NCBI GenBank assembly: GCA_028824295.1
Contig: JAPPED010000001.1
Span: 62,001-126,000, forward strand
Reading direction: 5' to 3'
Source: Rhodospirillales bacterium
Lineage (GTDB): Bacteria > Pseudomonadota > Alphaproteobacteria > TMED109
DNA length: 64,000 nucleotides
Part shown: positions 44,437 to 52,591 of the stretch, piece after piece
Numbering within the stretch: the first letter of the stretch is position 1
Layout: each line of letters starts with the position of its first letter
Translations under genes and position numbers: made by a program
The notes under the pieces: model-generated
What the model saw: only the letters and a program-made list of their open reading frames with translations
Told to the model about the DNA's origin: nothing
The model's database searches: none

Positions 44437-47259
44437 TCAGGCCGCTGTGATGCGGCAGAGCGTAACCTTGCTCTCCTGCATCTGGGTCACGGAATCGTAG
44501 CCGTAAGTACCGATGGTGTTTGACGATTCTCCGAGCACGTACGGGTCAGCGCCTTCAGGGTACCGGTGACGGAGATCTTGCCCCATGAACCGGCCACCGA
44601 AGTGAAACGGCATAAATGCCACCCCTGGATCGACCCGGCGGGTTACCAGCGCCTTGACAAGCACGCGCCCTCCTTCCGGTCCCTCAACCCAGATGTCGTC
44701 ACCATCCTGGAAGCCGGCGTTATTCGCGTCGCGCGGATGAACTTCGCAGAACATCTCCTGCTGCAATTCGGCCAGCCATGGGTTTGACCGGCTCTCGTCG
44801 CCGCCCCCTTCATATTCCACGAGCCGCCCCGTCGTGAGGATGATGGGATAGTCCTTGGAGTAGTCCCGCTGCTGAATCGATCGATAAAGTACCGGGACTC
44901 GGTATCCGCGCGTGTCCTCGTAAGTGGGGTAGTCGGACACAAGATCACGGCGCGTCGTGTAGAGCGGTTCACGGTGAAGCGGGACCGGGTCCGGGAAATT
45001 CCAGACAACCGCCCGGGCTTTCGCGTTTCCGAACGGAGCGCATCCGTGACGTATGGCCACCCGCTGAATCCCGCCGGAGAGATCCGTCTTCCAATTGGTC
45101 TTGTCTCCGGCAATTGACTCGATTACAGCCCGTTCCTCCTCTGTCAGGTCTCCGTCCCAACCAAGCCGCTTCAGCATCGCCATTGTGAACTCGGGATACC
45201 CGTCTTCGATTTCGGAATCCTTGCTGAATGAACCGTCTGCCAGAAGATTCTCACCATCCCTTAAAACACCGAAACGCGCTCGAAAGGTCAGCCCGCCGTC
45301 GGCGACGGCCTGTGAGGTGTCGTAGAGGATGGGAGTTCCCGGGTGAGCCAGCTGCTCGTTGCCCCAGCAGGGCCAGGGAAGCCCGTAATACTCGCCGTCA
45401 CAGGGGCCACCCTCCGCCTTGAGCGTGGTGCGGTCAAAGGTGCCCATATTGGCCATGTGCTTGCGCAGACGTTCGGGCGTTTGACCGGTGTACCCGATCG
45501 TCCACATGCCACGATTGAACTCTCGCGTGATGTCCTCGATGACCGGTTCGTGGTCTCGAACTTCGATGTTGCGGAATAGCGGCCCGTCTATTTCGAGTTG
45601 CTTCGCGAGCCGGTAAATGATCTCGTGATCGGGCTTCGATTCAAACAGTGGCTCGACAACTCGTTCGCGCCACTGCAGTGAGCGGTTCGACGCCGTGACG
45701 GAGCCGTAGGTCTCGAACTGTGTCGCCGCAGGAAGCAGGTATACGCCGTCCTGGCGTTCGTGCAGCACAGCGGTCAACGTGGGATACGGATCCACCACGA
45801 CCAGCAGGTCAAGCTTGTTCATTGCCCGACGCATGTCCGGGAGACGTGTCTGGGAATTCGGCGCGTGCCCCCAGAAGATCATGGCCTTGAGGGTTTCGGG
45901 CTGATCCAGGTTCTCCTTGTCCTCGAGAACGCCGTCCACCCACCTGGATACCGGGATTCCCTTCGATTGCATCAATTCCGACGAAGAGAAGCGCGTGGCC
46001 AGGGTCTCGTACGATACCCCCCAAACCCGGGCCCAATGCTTCCATGCGCCTTCCGAGAGCCCGTAATAGCCTGGCAGCGTGTGGCTCAGCACCCCGAGGT
46101 CGGTAGCGCCCTGGACATTGTCATGACCGCGGAAAATATTCGTCCCGCCTCCGGCCTTACCCATATTTCCCAAGGCCAACTGGAGGATGCAGTACGCGCG
46201 GGTATTGTTGTTCCCGGTGGTGTGCTGGGTCCCTCCCATGCACCAGATGACCGTACCGGGTCGATTCTCTGCCATCGTCTTGGTGATTTGGCGAACCTGC
46301 TCACCCGGAACACCGGTGACACGCTCGGTTTCCGCCGGTGTCCATCGGGCGACTTCCTCGCGGATCTGGTCGAGTCCCCACACCCGCGACTGGATGAAGG
46401 ACTCGTCCTCCCAACCGTTTTCGAACAAGTGCCACAGCATGCCCCAGACCAGGGCCACGTCCGAGCCCGGACGGATGCGGACATACTCGTCAGCGTGCGC
46501 GGCAGTACGCGTGAAGCGCGGGTCGACCACGATGAATGGCGCGCCTTTTTCCTTGGCCTTCAGCAAATGCACCATGGAGACCGGATGCGCTTCGGCCGGA
46601 TTTCCTCCGATCAAGAAAATGGACTTGGAATTGTGGATATCGTTGTAACTATTCGTCATTGCGCCGTAGCCCCAAGTATTGGCCACGCCCGCAACTGTGG
46701 TCGAATGACAGATACGCGCTTGATGATCGACGTTATTGGTGCCCCAGAATGCTGCGAACTTGCGGAAGAGGTAGGCCTGTTCGTTATTGTGCTTAGCTGA
46801 TCCGAGCCAGTACACCGAATCCGGCCCCGCTGTTGTTCGGATCCGTTCAAGTTCCGCGCCAACTTCTTCGATCGCCCGGTCCCAATCGAGCCGCTCCCAG
46901 CGACCGCCAACCAACTTCATCGGGTATCTGAGACGGCGTTCTCCGTGGGCGTGCTCCCTTACTGACGCCCCTTTCGCGCAATGCGCTCCGAGGTTGAACG
47001 GGCTGTCGAAACTGGGTTCTTGACCAATCCAGACCCCGTTCTGCACTTCTGCGGTAACCGCGCACCCGACTGAACAATGCGTGCATACGGACAACACGTT
47101 TTCAATGCCGTCGCTTCCGGTGAGCGCCGTATCCGCGGCTTCAACCCGCCCTCCCGGCACGAGTCCTGCGAGCGCGGAGCCAGCGGCAACGACGCCCGAA
47201 TTGCGAAGAAAGGCCCGGCGGTCAAGCGCGGTGCCGGCGATGGATGATCGAGAAGACAT
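44437..47259 (-). CDS. Formate dehydrogenase catalytic (alpha) subunit, Mo/W-bis-MGD, cysteine type
   Basis: A 940-residue periplasm-facing molybdoenzyme oxidising formate to CO2. The twin-arginine leader is DRRAFLRNSGVVAAG. The [4Fe-4S] ligands are Cys59, Cys62, Cys66 and Cys94, followed by the Lys that contacts the cofactor (KGAS). The active-site residue is Cys184 in QARICHSTTVAG, with the conserved His next to it, in place of selenocysteine. Later bis-MGD motifs include GGNPAEAHP and GGTQHTTGNNN. It is preceded by a small TAT protein gene, followed by the Fe-S subunit, and depends on fdhD and mobA nearby. It may consume formate released by BoxC or other sources. Confidence 0.95.
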   Translation of the reverse strand: MSSRSSIAGTALDRRAFLRNSGVVAAGSALAGLVPGGRVEAADTALTGSDGIENVLSVCTHCSVGCAVTAEVQNGVWIGQEPSFDSPFNLGAHCAKGASVREHAHGERRLRYPMKLVGGRWERLDWDRAIEEVGAELERIRTTAGPDSVYWLGSAKHNNEQAYLFRKFAAFWGTNNVDHQARICHSTTVAGVANTWGYGAMTNSYNDIHNSKSIFLIGGNPAEAHPVSMVHLLKAKEKGAPFIVVDPRFTRTAAHADEYVRIRPGSDVALVWGMLWHLFENGWEDESFIQSRVWGLDQIREEVARWTPAETERVTGVPGEQVRQITKTMAENRPGTVIWCMGGTQHTTGNNNTRAYCILQLALGNMGKAGGGTNIFRGHDNVQGATDLGVLSHTLPGYYGLSEGAWKHWARVWGVSYETLATRFSSSELMQSKGIPVSRWVDGVLEDKENLDQPETLKAMIFWGHAPNSQTRLPDMRRAMNKLDLLVVVDPYPTLTAVLHERQDGVYLLPAATQFETYGSVTASNRSLQWRERVVEPLFESKPDHEIIYRLAKQLEIDGPLFRNIEVRDHEPVIEDITREFNRGMWTIGYTGQTPERLRKHMANMGTFDRTTLKAEGGPCDGEYYGLPWPCWGNEQLAHPGTPILYDTSQAVADGGLTFRARFGVLRDGENLLADGSFSKDSEIEDGYPEFTMAMLKRLGWDGDLTEEERAVIESIAGDKTNWKTDLSGGIQRVAIRHGCAPFGNAKARAVVWNFPDPVPLHREPLYTTRRDLVSDYPTYEDTRGYRVPVLYRSIQQRDYSKDYPIILTTGRLVEYEGGGDESRSNPWLAELQQEMFCEVHPRDANNAGFQDGDDIWVEGPEGGRVLVKALVTRRVDPGVAFMPFHFGGRFMGQDLRHRYPEGADPYVLGESSNTIGTYGYDSVTQMQESKVTLCRITAA

Positions 47260-47504: not shown

Positions 47505-47955
47505 ACGCTCCTCCTTCGTTTACCACCCCAGAAGCATAGCGGTACCTGATCGCAATTGCTCGGCCAAATTTGAAATCGGTGTTCGGCGGGGAGTCGAGGA
47601 GAAAACAATGCCATGGCCCGGGGTTTGCCGGAGCTTCGATGGTGGCAAGACGGCACATCGCACCGCCGGAGGGGTATCTGTGACCATCATCCGTTGGAGC
47701 ACTTGCGCGGGCGTCCGCGAGGTTGGAGTTGGAATCAAGACGCGGCCGCGCCAACTCCGACCTGGAACGGGCTGATCGCGTGCTTCCTGGATAGACCGGG
47801 CGCTCGAACCTGCATCCTGAAGAGAAGCTGAAGGCACTACCTCGGTGATGGCGCTCGGTAACCTTCAAGCGCCCTCCGATTGCAGCCATGGGGCAAGCTT
47901 CTGTGACCCCCCGTCAGTTTACGGACAGCTGGCGAACGGTCCTGCCATGTGCGCA
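47505..47955. other. Intergenic region upstream of the formate dehydrogenase operon
   Basis: About 450 bases between the group II intron 3' end and the small TAT gene. No convincing gene is seen. The promoter of the formate dehydrogenase operon should be here. TACGCTCCTCCTTCG just before the start contains the minus-strand ribosome-binding site (GAAGGAGGAG). Confidence 0.5.
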
Positions 47956-47995
47956 ATCGGGATAGGGGGGAGCCTCGCGGCTCCACCCCTCCCAC

Positions 47996-48029
47996 ACCAC
48001 CGTGCGTACGGGTCCGTACACGGCGGTTC
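47996..48029 (-). ncRNA. Group II intron domain V catalytic hairpin
   Basis: The minus strand reads GAACCGCCGTGTACGG, a short loop ACCC, then GTACGCACGGTGGT. The arms pair ACC/GGT, CCGTG/CACGG and TAC/GTA with a two-base CG bulge, the standard domain V shape, with a CGC-like catalytic triad in the lower stem. Domain VI follows directly as a GC-rich stem (about 47960-47993). The fold looks intact although the ORF is broken. Confidence 0.82.
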
Positions 48030-48036
48030 GACGGAT

Positions 48037-49370
48037 TTAAGCCGTGGCCGGTCCCGCCACGGAGGCGAGTCCGAGCCGGTCGAAGAAGTTATTGGGGAGC
48101 GCGTAGGAGAGCGCGGGGCTGTTGCCGAGCCGCCATGGACCGTGAGCACTGCCGGCGGTGTTCGCCGCCAGCTGCTTGCCCACGCCAAGACGGTGTAGCG
48201 CCGCAAAGCGGGTACGCCCGCGCTTCCATTGCCGCCAGACGATGGCACGGAGCCTTCGTCTGACCCATTGGTCGAGGCGACGCAGCACCGAGGGCGTCTC
48301 GCAGAAGCCGAAGTAGCCCCGCCACCCGGCGAGGTAGCGGGACAGCTCCATGACGAGATGGGCGAGGCTGACGCTCTTCGTGCAGCGCGTCAGTTCCCGG
48401 ACCCTGGCCTTGAACCGGGCGAGCGCTTGCGGCGCGATCCGCCGCCTGGGCGCCTGCCCGACCGTCAAGCTGAAGCCCAGGAAGGCCCGTGCCACCGGAC
48501 GATCCACCGCGCTCTTGCCTGCGTTCACCGTCAGCTTCAGCCGCCGGGCAAGGAAGCCGGTCACGCTCGCCATGACCCGCTCGCCCGCCCGCCGGGACCG
48601 CACATAGATGTTGCAGTCATCGGCGTAACGAACGAAGCGGTGGCCACGCTTCTCCAGTTCCTGGTCCAGGACGTCAAGCATCAGATTCGACAGCAAGGGT
48701 GAGAGCGTGTCAGTGCCGGATGAAAACTCCCCGATAGCGCCGAAGTAAAAGTCCCCAGTCGGCCGGCCACCAGCCCCATCAGGATGTCGTGATTGACCCG
48801 GTCGAAGAACTTCTCCAGATCGAGGTCGACCACGATGCCGAAGCCCGCGCGGATGTGCTCCTGTGCGCGCCCGATCGCCTGATGGGCCGAGCGTCCGGGC
48901 CGGAACCCGTAGCTCGCGTCCGAGAAGCTTCCGTCCCAGTCCTCCTGCAGCACCTGCATCACTGCCTGCTGGATGAAGCGGTCGAGCACCGTCGGCACAC
49001 CCAGCGGGCGAACCCCGCCCGAGGCCTTCGGGATCTCCACCCACCGCACCGGCTGCGGTTCGTAGGTGCCATCGAGGAGCCGGGACCTGATCTCGGGCCA
49101 GTGGCTTCTCAGGTGAGCGCCCAGATCGCCGGTCGTCATGCCGTCGACACCGGGCGCCCCCCGGTTGCGCCGGACACGCGCCAGCGCCTTCTTCAGATTG
49201 CCGGGCTGGAGGACCGCCGCCATCGACGGTCCCGGTCCGGCGGCCGGGCGTTCGGGGTCGGCACGCGCCATGCGGGCTTCGGTCCCTTGGCTCCCGGCGC
49301 TCCGGGCTTCACCCTTCGCCACCGGCTCCAAGGCCAGTTCCAACTGGATCTTCTGCCGCCTGGTCCGCAT
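48037..49370 (-). pseudogene. Group II intron reverse transcriptase/maturase, deleted and frameshifted
   Basis: The N-terminal half (start ATG about 49370, MRTRRQKIQLELALEP) carries RT blocks GAPGVDGMTT, KASGGVRPLGVPTVLDRFIQQ, SYGFRPGRSAHQAI and VDLDLEKFFDRVNHDIL. It stops making sense at about 48757. The other half continues in another frame with LSPLLSNLMLDVLD, the active-site RYADDCNIYV, and the maturase domain (YLAGWRGYFGF). Between them about 40 residues of RT, including the QGGP part of the conserved QGGPLSPLL block, are missing. They are replaced by two tandem 24-base repeats (48709-48756). The chain cannot be translated whole, so the intron is probably immobile. Confidence 0.88.
48709..48756. 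repeat. Two tandem imperfect 24-bp repeats, probable leftover IS21-type end
   Basis: 48709-48732 and 48733-48756 match at 17 of 24 positions. Shared features are a GNCG core (TGCCGGA / CGCCGAA), an AAAA run and a CCCC end. The block starts with TGTCAGTGCCGGATGAAAAC on the plus strand, similar in style to IS21-family termini, which start with TG and contain several subterminal repeats. It sits exactly where the reverse transcriptase breaks. No istA or istB is present. Confidence 0.55.
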
Positions 49371-49779
49371 GAGCGCACCGTCCTCATGACCCTGTCCATC
49401 GTTCAGGCCTTCGTCGGCAAGCCGACTACTATGCCGTCTGCTGACTTCCGCGCTGCGATCGCGACCCTTGCGGGAACGCTCAGTCCGGGACGTGCCGGAC
49501 GCGGCGCGGACCTCCCGAGGTAAGACCAGCCGCCTTCGCCACACACCCGCCGGATTTACCACCCCGGGCCTTGATGGCTATGGACTTCGCGGTCATTTGC
49601 CCGCTCGTCCGCCCGGGTAGGCCTCGTATCCGGTTCTTGTCCATCGGGGCGCGGCTTTGCTCCGCGCTTCCTTCAAACCCTGCCTTACAACAGCGCCCTT
49701 GCGCTTCGCTAATCCTTCACCGCCATCAGGTTGGATAGAGGACTTGCACTTCCAAGCTGTTGGTCATGCTCGGCACACC

Positions 49780-49812
49780 AAAAAAAGGGCGGCGGTCGGA
49801 TGACCGCCGCCC
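49780..49812 (-). terminator. Intrinsic terminator of the IorAB-like operon
   Basis: On the minus strand an 11-bp perfect stem (49802-49812 with 49787-49797), a 4-base loop (49798-49801) and seven T residues (49780-49786). It begins 24 bases after the stop of the large-subunit gene. The group II intron starts two bases after the T-run. Confidence 0.92.
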
Positions 49813-49835: not shown

Positions 49836-52127
49836 TCAGGCTTCTTGCATCGCCGCCTTGACCTTCTCCGCAGTGATCGGCCACGAACGTACGCGTGCGC
49901 CCACCGCTGCTTGGATGGCGTTGGCAATCGCGGGCCCGACAACCGTCACGACGGGCTCGCCCGTCCCGGCCGGGTAGTGGCCGTTCTGGATGATGCTGAC
50001 GTCGATTTCAGGCACCTGGTTGATCCGCATCGGCGTCCAGGTGTCGAAGTTCGACTGTTCGATCGAACCGTCCTTCATCGTGATGTTCTCGTAGAGAACC
50101 CTCGATGTCCCGTAGATTGCGGAACCCTGGATCTGCGCCAGCACACCGTCCGGATTGACGGCGGTGCCCACGTCCATCGCGATGGAAAGCTTCCTTACGG
50201 TCGGCTCTCCGGATTCGGGGTCAACGTGCACCTCAGCGACGCACGCCGTCCACGTCGGGGAGCCACGCTCCTGCGACGTAACGCTGGCAATTCCCTGACC
50301 CGTGTTGGCGGGGAGAGGCTTCACGCCGTAACCCGCGCGTCCCGCAGCAACCAGCAGTGCGTTGCGCAGACGCTCCGAGCCACCCACCGTGTTCGGCGGG
50401 GTACCGACGTTCTTGCCCACAGCCTTCAGAAGCGAAGTCCGGAACTCGAGCGGGTCGCGTCCGACTGCGTGCGCGGCTTCGTCGAGGAACGACTCAACAG
50501 CCCACATCGTCCAGGTCGGTGCAACTGCACGGAGCTGTCCCGGAGGGGTCGCGCTCTGACCAACAATGTTCTCAATGGAACGTACGTACTGGTTCGGAAC
50601 GTTGTACCAGTGGTCCGATCCGTTCGTGGAGAACGGGTCGATCTTGCCCTTCTTGTCTACTGATTCCGCCAAGAAGCCCGGAGCCTGCCGCTTGGTCGCC
50701 CAAGCCGAGCAGACAGTGTGAACCATCGTGTCCAGATCACCGGCGACGTTCACCCCACCTTTCACGGTCTGGTAGGTGAGCGACTGGTGGAAGTCGAACA
50801 TCACGTCCTGCTCGCGGGTGAACACGAGCTTGACGGGACGCCCGGCTGCCTTGGCCGCCAGGGCCGCTGGAATCATCGCATCCGGCTCAAGCCGCCGTCC
50901 GAAGCCAGTACCTGCGTACTGCTGGTGGTGGACCACATTGGCCGGTTCCACACCGAGTGCTTCAGCCGTCATAGCCGTGCATCGGGTGGACCACTGGCAC
51001 GCCGTGAAGAGGTGCCAGACCCCGTCCTGCTCCATGGCCACGCAGTTCATCGGCTCCATCATGCCGTGGTAGCCGAGGCTCGTTTCGTACTCGGCCTCGA
51101 CGACGGTCGCGGCATTGCTCATGCCTGCGTCCGTGTCGCCGTCGATTACCCAGGCAAACCCTTCGCCGTCGGCAGTTGCCTTCTTGGCGTAGCCAAGAAT
51201 GTCTGCAGTGCTGACGTTGGCGTTCGGACCGAGATCCCAATCGACGGAAACGGCATCGGCGGCCTTTTCGGCTGCCCAGATCGTCTCGGCGAGCACGATC
51301 GCGTAGCCGCGCTGGACTCCGGTCGGATCCTCGATGATTTCGGTTCCGATGTATCCATCGATGCCGCTAGCGGCCGAGTCGTCGACCGAGTTCGGCATCG
51401 CACCCCAGCGGGTGGGCCAGGTGACGATCCGACCGTACGCCATGTTCGGAACGAACACGTCGATGCCGTACCGGGCGGTGCCGTCGATCTTTGCCGGAAT
51501 GTCGAGAGCCGGAACCGACGTGCCGACGAGTTTGTACTCGCCAAACTTCTTCAGTTCGATGGCTTTCATTTCATCTTCGCTGAAGGTCCGGTCGATCGGG
51601 CCCGCGCTGATGATTTCGGAATAGGTCGTCGACTGACCGGTGCCCGTGTGAGTGACGGTGCTGTTTGCAGCGGAACACTCGCTGGCCGGCACGCCAAGCA
51701 TGTTGGCACCAGCCTCCACGAGAGCCATCCGCGCGGCCGCACCGATCCGCGAGTTGCGGTCGAACGTCCAGTTCACCGACCACGAACCGCCAGTGATCAT
51801 CAGACCCCACTTTTCGTGGCTGTCTGGGTAGTCAATGCGGACGTCGTTCCAGTCGATTTCCAACTCTTCGGCAACTGCCTGCGCCAATGCGGTGCCGACG
51901 TGCTGCCCCATTTCCGTCTTGGTGATGTGGACAGTCGCGATCCCGCTGGGCTCCATGGTCAGGAACAAGCTGGGCTCGAAATTGCCAGCCGCCAGGGCCT
52001 CGCGGGCACCGCCGGTCAAGTGTGGCAGGACTGAGTAGCCGACCACCAATCCAGTGCCGGCAACAGCGGAGCCGACCAGAATGTCGCGGCGCGTTGCGCC
52101 ACCCAAGTCTTTCATGTGCTTGGTCAT
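49836..52127 (-). CDS. Molybdenum hydroxylase large subunit, IorB-like (isoquinoline 1-oxidoreductase family)
   Basis: A 763-residue xanthine-oxidase-family molybdopterin subunit. It has an N-terminal twin-arginine-type leader (ATRRDILVGSAVAGTGLVVG), so it is exported, as for IorB-type enzymes. MoCo-binding regions include KTEMGQHVGTALAQAVAEEL, HQQYAGTGFGRRLEPDAM and QLRAVAPTWTMWAVESFLDEAAH (split: QLRAVAPTWTMWAVE). It hydroxylates an N-heterocycle or oxidises an aldehyde; the substrate is not predictable. It is two bases after the Fe-S subunit gene. No FAD subunit is encoded, in line with the two-subunit Ior type that hands electrons to a cytochrome. Confidence 0.88.
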   Translation of the reverse strand: MTKHMKDLGGATRRDILVGSAVAGTGLVVGYSVLPHLTGGAREALAAGNFEPSLFLTMEPSGIATVHITKTEMGQHVGTALAQAVAEELEIDWNDVRIDYPDSHEKWGLMITGGSWSVNWTFDRNSRIGAAARMALVEAGANMLGVPASECSAANSTVTHTGTGQSTTYSEIISAGPIDRTFSEDEMKAIELKKFGEYKLVGTSVPALDIPAKIDGTARYGIDVFVPNMAYGRIVTWPTRWGAMPNSVDDSAASGIDGYIGTEIIEDPTGVQRGYAIVLAETIWAAEKAADAVSVDWDLGPNANVSTADILGYAKKATADGEGFAWVIDGDTDAGMSNAATVVEAEYETSLGYHGMMEPMNCVAMEQDGVWHLFTACQWSTRCTAMTAEALGVEPANVVHHQQYAGTGFGRRLEPDAMIPAALAAKAAGRPVKLVFTREQDVMFDFHQSLTYQTVKGGVNVAGDLDTMVHTVCSAWATKRQAPGFLAESVDKKGKIDPFSTNGSDHWYNVPNQYVRSIENIVGQSATPPGQLRAVAPTWTMWAVESFLDEAAHAVGRDPLEFRTSLLKAVGKNVGTPPNTVGGSERLRNALLVAAGRAGYGVKPLPANTGQGIASVTSQERGSPTWTACVAEVHVDPESGEPTVRKLSIAMDVGTAVNPDGVLAQIQGSAIYGTSRVLYENITMKDGSIEQSNFDTWTPMRINQVPEIDVSIIQNGHYPAGTGEPVVTVVGPAIANAIQAAVGARVRSWPITAEKVKAAMQEA

Positions 52128-52129
52128 GG

Positions 52130-52591
52130 TCAGGCCTCCTGCATCATCTGGGCAGCCCGACGGACACCCTGCTTGATCCGAGCGTACGTTGAGCAGCGGC
52201 AGATGTTGCCTTGCATGGCATCGAGAATCTCTGCATCACTCGGGCTGGAGTTGGACTCAAGGAACGCAGCGGCATTCATCATCTGCCCGGACTGGCAGTA
52301 CCCGCACTGGGGAATCTGCAACTCCAGCCACGCCTTCTGCACCGGATGCTGACCCTTCGGGTCGAGGCCTTCAATCGTAGTGATCGTCGCACCTTCGGCG
52401 TCCGACAACTGCAGCTGGCAGGACCGCACTGCTTCACCATTAAGGTGAACAGTACAGGCCCCACAGAGGCCAATGCCGCATCCAAACTTCGTGCCGGTTA
52501 GACGCAGACCTTCGCGAATGACCCACAGCAGTTTGGTGTCCCCCGGTGCATCGACGACGTGCGACACGCCGTTGATGTTAAGAACAGCCAT
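52130..52591 (-). CDS. [2Fe-2S] subunit of the molybdenum hydroxylase, IorA-like
   Basis: A 153-residue electron-transfer subunit. The plant-type [2Fe-2S] motif is CGIGLCGACTVHLNG...C, and the second cluster motif is CGYCQSGQMMNAAAFL followed by GNICRCSTYARI. It passes electrons from the molybdenum centre of the partner. It is the first gene of the two-gene operon ending at the strong terminator at 49780-49812. Confidence 0.93.
   Translation of the reverse strand: MAVLNINGVSHVVDAPGDTKLLWVIREGLRLTGTKFGCGIGLCGACTVHLNGEAVRSCQLQLSDAEGATITTIEGLDPKGQHPVQKAWLELQIPQCGYCQSGQMMNAAAFLESNSSPSDAEILDAMQGNICRCSTYARIKQGVRRAAQMMQEA

Follow-up and report, generated by a model that had tools for sequence, protein, structure and literature searches.

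Class C group II introns of bacteria insert after intrinsic terminators (Robart 2007, as cited in PMC4424553). Their boundaries follow the consensus GUNYGCCNRGCAUGG ... CCUACYCGAU, and truncated or broken copies are common among them (PMC4028801). The intron described here, which lies within a 64,000-nucleotide stretch of DNA from a Rhodospirillales bacterium (the window), resembles the terminator-targeting class C introns (Robart, Seo and Zimmerly 2007; review PMC4424553 and, for the boundary consensus, PMC4028801) in both of its ends and in a protein devoid of the endonuclease (En) domain. In addition, it shares with them a target made up of a hairpin and a short IBS1, insertion immediately past the T tail and location on the terminator strand. 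In contrast to typical class C introns, the window copy carries an IS21-type scar in its protein and displays a weak IBS1-EBS1 match. It is a damaged intron of an already well-described family, which the preliminary description had recognised correctly, and it leaves current understanding unchanged; its value is that terminator targeting by a class C intron can be seen cleanly and to the exact base in an uncultured alphaproteobacterial genus, in which other species present the empty site. Very likely, insertion behind the terminator was followed by IS21-type damage to the reverse transcriptase (RT), and what remains is a structurally complete ribozyme that is probably immobile and mostly silent.

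The element is a full-length class C (IIC) group II intron of 1823 nt (GTGTGCC...CCCGAT) on the minus strand at 47956-49778, as delimited by Rfam matches, empty sites and relatives. The covariance search proposed in the preliminary description recovered the structure of domains I-VI, with part of domain I at 49525-49694 (RF02001, 133 bits), a further D1-D4 region at 49406-49481 (RF01998, 53 bits) and domains V and VI, which had been thought still foldable and are indeed intact, at 47956-48028 (RF00029, 45 bits), all on the minus strand; each of the three matches exceeds the Rfam gathering score, and domains II and III are covered without separate models. In domain V, CGC is aligned with the AGC of the RF00029 consensus, and a CGC catalytic triad in this domain is typical of IIC introns. 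The ends, GUGUGCCGAGCAUGA ... CCUAUCCCGAU, are near-matches to the class C consensus of PMC4028801 and are fixed independently by the empty site. Together with the RT match to GsI-IIC and the terminator site, these ends bear out the class C identity proposed earlier. The closest members of the same lineage are found in metagenome-assembled genomes (MAGs) of a Rhodospirillales bacterium (L102), a member of Gemmatimonadetes (L103) and Defluviicoccus (L104), with RTs that are 80-83% identical. Their RNA domains are collinear with those of the window copy, with 85-88% identity in the 5' part and 96-97% in D5/6 and gaps of at most 1 nt, and no large RNA deletion was found in comparison with these three relatives, which differ from the window copy in their intact 466-residue open frames and in their insertion sites.

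On the minus strand, the stop codon of an iorB-like gene is followed by a hairpin, seven T residues, a single G at 49779 and GTGTGCC from 49778, so the preliminary description of a perfect 11-bp hairpin, seven T and one or two bases was correct to the base. The hairpin, the intrinsic terminator of the upstream molybdenum-hydroxylase operon, occupies 49812-49787 and consists of an 11-bp stem without mismatches and a 4-nt loop (GGGCGGCGGTC-ATCC-GACCGCCGCCC; -26.5 kcal/mol, z -7.8), and the T7 tail, read from the sequence, lies at 49780-49786. The same operon and terminator occur without the intron in six other species of the genus, in which the operon gene is 97-100% identical at the protein level. 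In two of them (G002 and G005) the flanks join without a gap at exactly 47955|49779, and in a third (G004) the left flank ends at 49779 as well and the right flank resumes within 10 nt, therefore the junction is directly supported by three of the six intron-less species, two of which read straight through. The clean empty site that had been sought in relatives is thus present, and the insertion junction is unambiguous, with no bases lost or duplicated. Family-level relatives outside the genus yielded no informative empty site, since their sequences are too diverged. The insertion, presumably by retrotransposition, probably took place after the species had diverged from the closest relative sampled, and would have occurred directly behind the operon terminator through recognition of the hairpin and the short IBS1.

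The position behind a terminator is known class C behaviour, for which an attC-type hairpin may take the place of the terminator, and the choice of terminator hairpins claimed in the preliminary description is upheld across the lineage as well as by the empty sites. Eleven starts of introns belonging to the lineage were read in the window and elsewhere in the genus, and each follows a terminator-like hairpin, most of them 0-4 nt past the T tail and two (L070 13803 and L071 2391) several nt farther. Among more distant relatives, a strict hairpin-plus-T test is passed by 29 of 55 starts, as compared with 6 of 205 upstream-shifted control positions at the same loci. This genome has strikingly few strong canonical intrinsic terminators: in the 464 kb sampled, the window included, only three were found that combine a perfect stem of 8 bp or more with a T run, so that placement of the intron behind one of them is far from chance. 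This rarity and the position shared by all 11 starts refute coincidence, which is almost certainly not the explanation.

In class C introns the IBS1-EBS1 pairing is short (3-4 bp), and exon recognition was approached here by covariation. IBS1 (TTTG), the last four nt of the 5' exon, lies at 49779-49782 (minus strand; sequence and covariation), and EBS1 (AAAU) at 49595-49598 (minus strand; covariation with IBS1 across 61 introns). When EBS1 is placed at intron positions 181-184, it pairs with the final four bases of the exon at 207 of 244 positions over the 61 introns, whereas shuffled EBS1-IBS1 pairings gave 122 +/- 6 and none of 5000 reached 207. Placement of EBS1 at intron positions 180-183, which would give a 4/4 match in the window copy, was rejected, as the one-position slide raised pairing in the family from 45% to 85%. 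With TTTG against AAAU, the window copy pairs at 2 of 4 positions and is one of 8 such poor cases among the 61, which may reflect either drift after insertion or an insertion driven by the hairpin. The 61-intron set could be used to weigh the hairpin against pairing in the target choice of this lineage.

The intron-encoded protein had been described as broken, which is confirmed by a single lesion that splits the RT. The N-terminal part (RT fingers) is encoded at 48767-49382, by profile and alignment and with an approximate start codon, and the C-terminal part, with the YADD segment and maturase domain X, at 48037-48711, both on the minus strand. Pfam identifies RVT_1 and the maturase domain GIIM in the two halves and no endonuclease domain in the protein. 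Both halves match the RT of GsI-IIC from Geobacillus stearothermophilus (PDB 6ar1) best, at 2e-53 and 1e-63. Compared with this enzyme, which is their best solved relative, about 36 residues are missing between the halves in the window copy. LtrA (IIA) and 6me0, a IIB maturase, are far worse matches; the RT class is thereby given by the best PDB match. Relative to L102-L104, about 112 nt including the QGGPL-encoding segment are exchanged for about 57-62 nt, and outside the lesion both parts align to these relatives without a gap. The substituted stretch is a terminal fragment of about 60 nt from an IS21-family element (48705-48767, minus strand; tip TGACA) inside the RT gene, and shares 98% identity with the terminal sequence found on elements of genome G001, in one of which an IS21-like transposase with an integrase core domain adjoins the matching end. 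The IS21 name follows from the transposase domains and from the IstA/IstB arrangement, which presumably identifies the G001 element as IS21. One more copy of this end (89%) is present in the intron's own genome (G000:C27:114994-115048), with no obvious transposase gene among the nearby ORFs.

The simplest history of the lesion would be an insertion followed by a deletion, in which an IS21-family element probably landed in the RT gene after the intron had been inserted, and a later deletion removed most of the element together with about 112 nt of the RT and left about 60 nt of its end. A broken RT lowers the likelihood that the intron is mobile and leaves its IIC assignment untouched, since broken copies are common in the family (PMC4028801) and an intact RT, though typical of mobile members, is not required for the class. 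The reverse order, in which the break preceded insertion and an intact sibling mobilised the intron in trans, would fit a lesion that is confined to the protein of an otherwise complete RNA, and intact relatives with RTs about 80% identical do exist in other genomes; however, no relative was found with another copy bearing this IS scar and the genome itself offers no donor, which makes this order quite improbable.

Donors also bear on splicing, for which the preliminary description had considered help in trans and had suggested a search for intron copies with an intact RT elsewhere in the genome. Searches of the intron's own genome with TIGR04416 and PF08388 returned the two RT halves of the window copy and no second group II RT or maturase, RF00029 detected domain V in the window copy only, and DNA searches revealed no second intron; the assembly is a draft of 35 contigs with 97.9% completeness, in which a missed intact copy is possible, not likely. 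Splicing of the window copy therefore appears doubtful, since only 2/4 EBS1-IBS1 positions are paired and no donor in trans is visible, and it is less probable than was first implied. Complete and conserved domains I-VI would still favour an intron that splices, alone or with a maturase provided in trans by another intron, and full-length group II RTs in the same-genus G006 mean that a donor exists in the genus. Yet no further group II RT and no maturase domain besides its own was found in its assembly, its exon pairing is among the worst 8 of 61 and it lies behind a strong terminator, and judged from these features such splicing is unlikely. Splicing by an orphan class C ribozyme that has no maturase of its own, with two A-U pairs to the 5' exon and reliance on the hairpin for exon recognition, would be very unlikely.

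As for the host, the operon whose terminator was hit encodes a molybdenum-hydroxylase large subunit (MoCoBD; 49836-52127) and a [2Fe-2S] small subunit (52130-52591), both on the minus strand. Its earlier designation as IorAB-like is sustained at the level of the molybdenum hydroxylase family, whereas the name IorAB itself is confirmed by no curated equivalog model. As had been proposed, the operon keeps its terminator, with the hairpin and T7 intact upstream of the intron, from which it would follow that little transcription should enter the intron. Downstream lies a formate dehydrogenase alpha-like gene (44437-47259, minus strand; TIGR01591, 485 bits, below the equivalog cut-off), the leader of which has been moved 1.8 kb away from the upstream operon. 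Its promoter is probably untouched, because the part of the leader that aligns across the seven species starts only some 390 nt beyond the intron, near 47566. A promoter-like site was looked for in this leader and none was found. The location between the two operons might suggest that the intron is kept as an insulator or as a 5'-leader element with an effect on formate dehydrogenase expression, but six species of the genus do without it, the common leader block starts well past it and the leader has no promoter-like site, so this role is extremely unlikely. The intron is probably neutral to both flanking operons, and no host function is indicated.

Other insertion sites of the lineage provide several further observations. 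A preference of the introns of this genus for the stem sequence GGGCGGCGGTC was considered because such terminators are few and several carry introns, and it was rejected; no such preference is needed, since strong terminators are rare, some of the sites lie behind paralogous genes and others have different stems. In this genus, introns of the lineage are found behind terminators of outer-surface gene paralogs (L069, L070, L075, L076) encoding Porin_4 or a TbpB-like barrel, the match of the latter being slightly under the Pfam cut-off. At L070 4740-5857 (G006:C108:26739-27857), the space between a convergent pair of paralogous TbpB-like genes contains two class C copies that face each other, and each of these copies follows a terminator of its own. 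Furthermore, a sub-group that includes L108, L109, L111, L113, L115, L122, L127 and L145 lies behind a short common hairpin, CCGCG..AGCGG, after which TTnGTT or TTnGTC takes the place of a T run; this hairpin is perhaps attC-like or another repeat.
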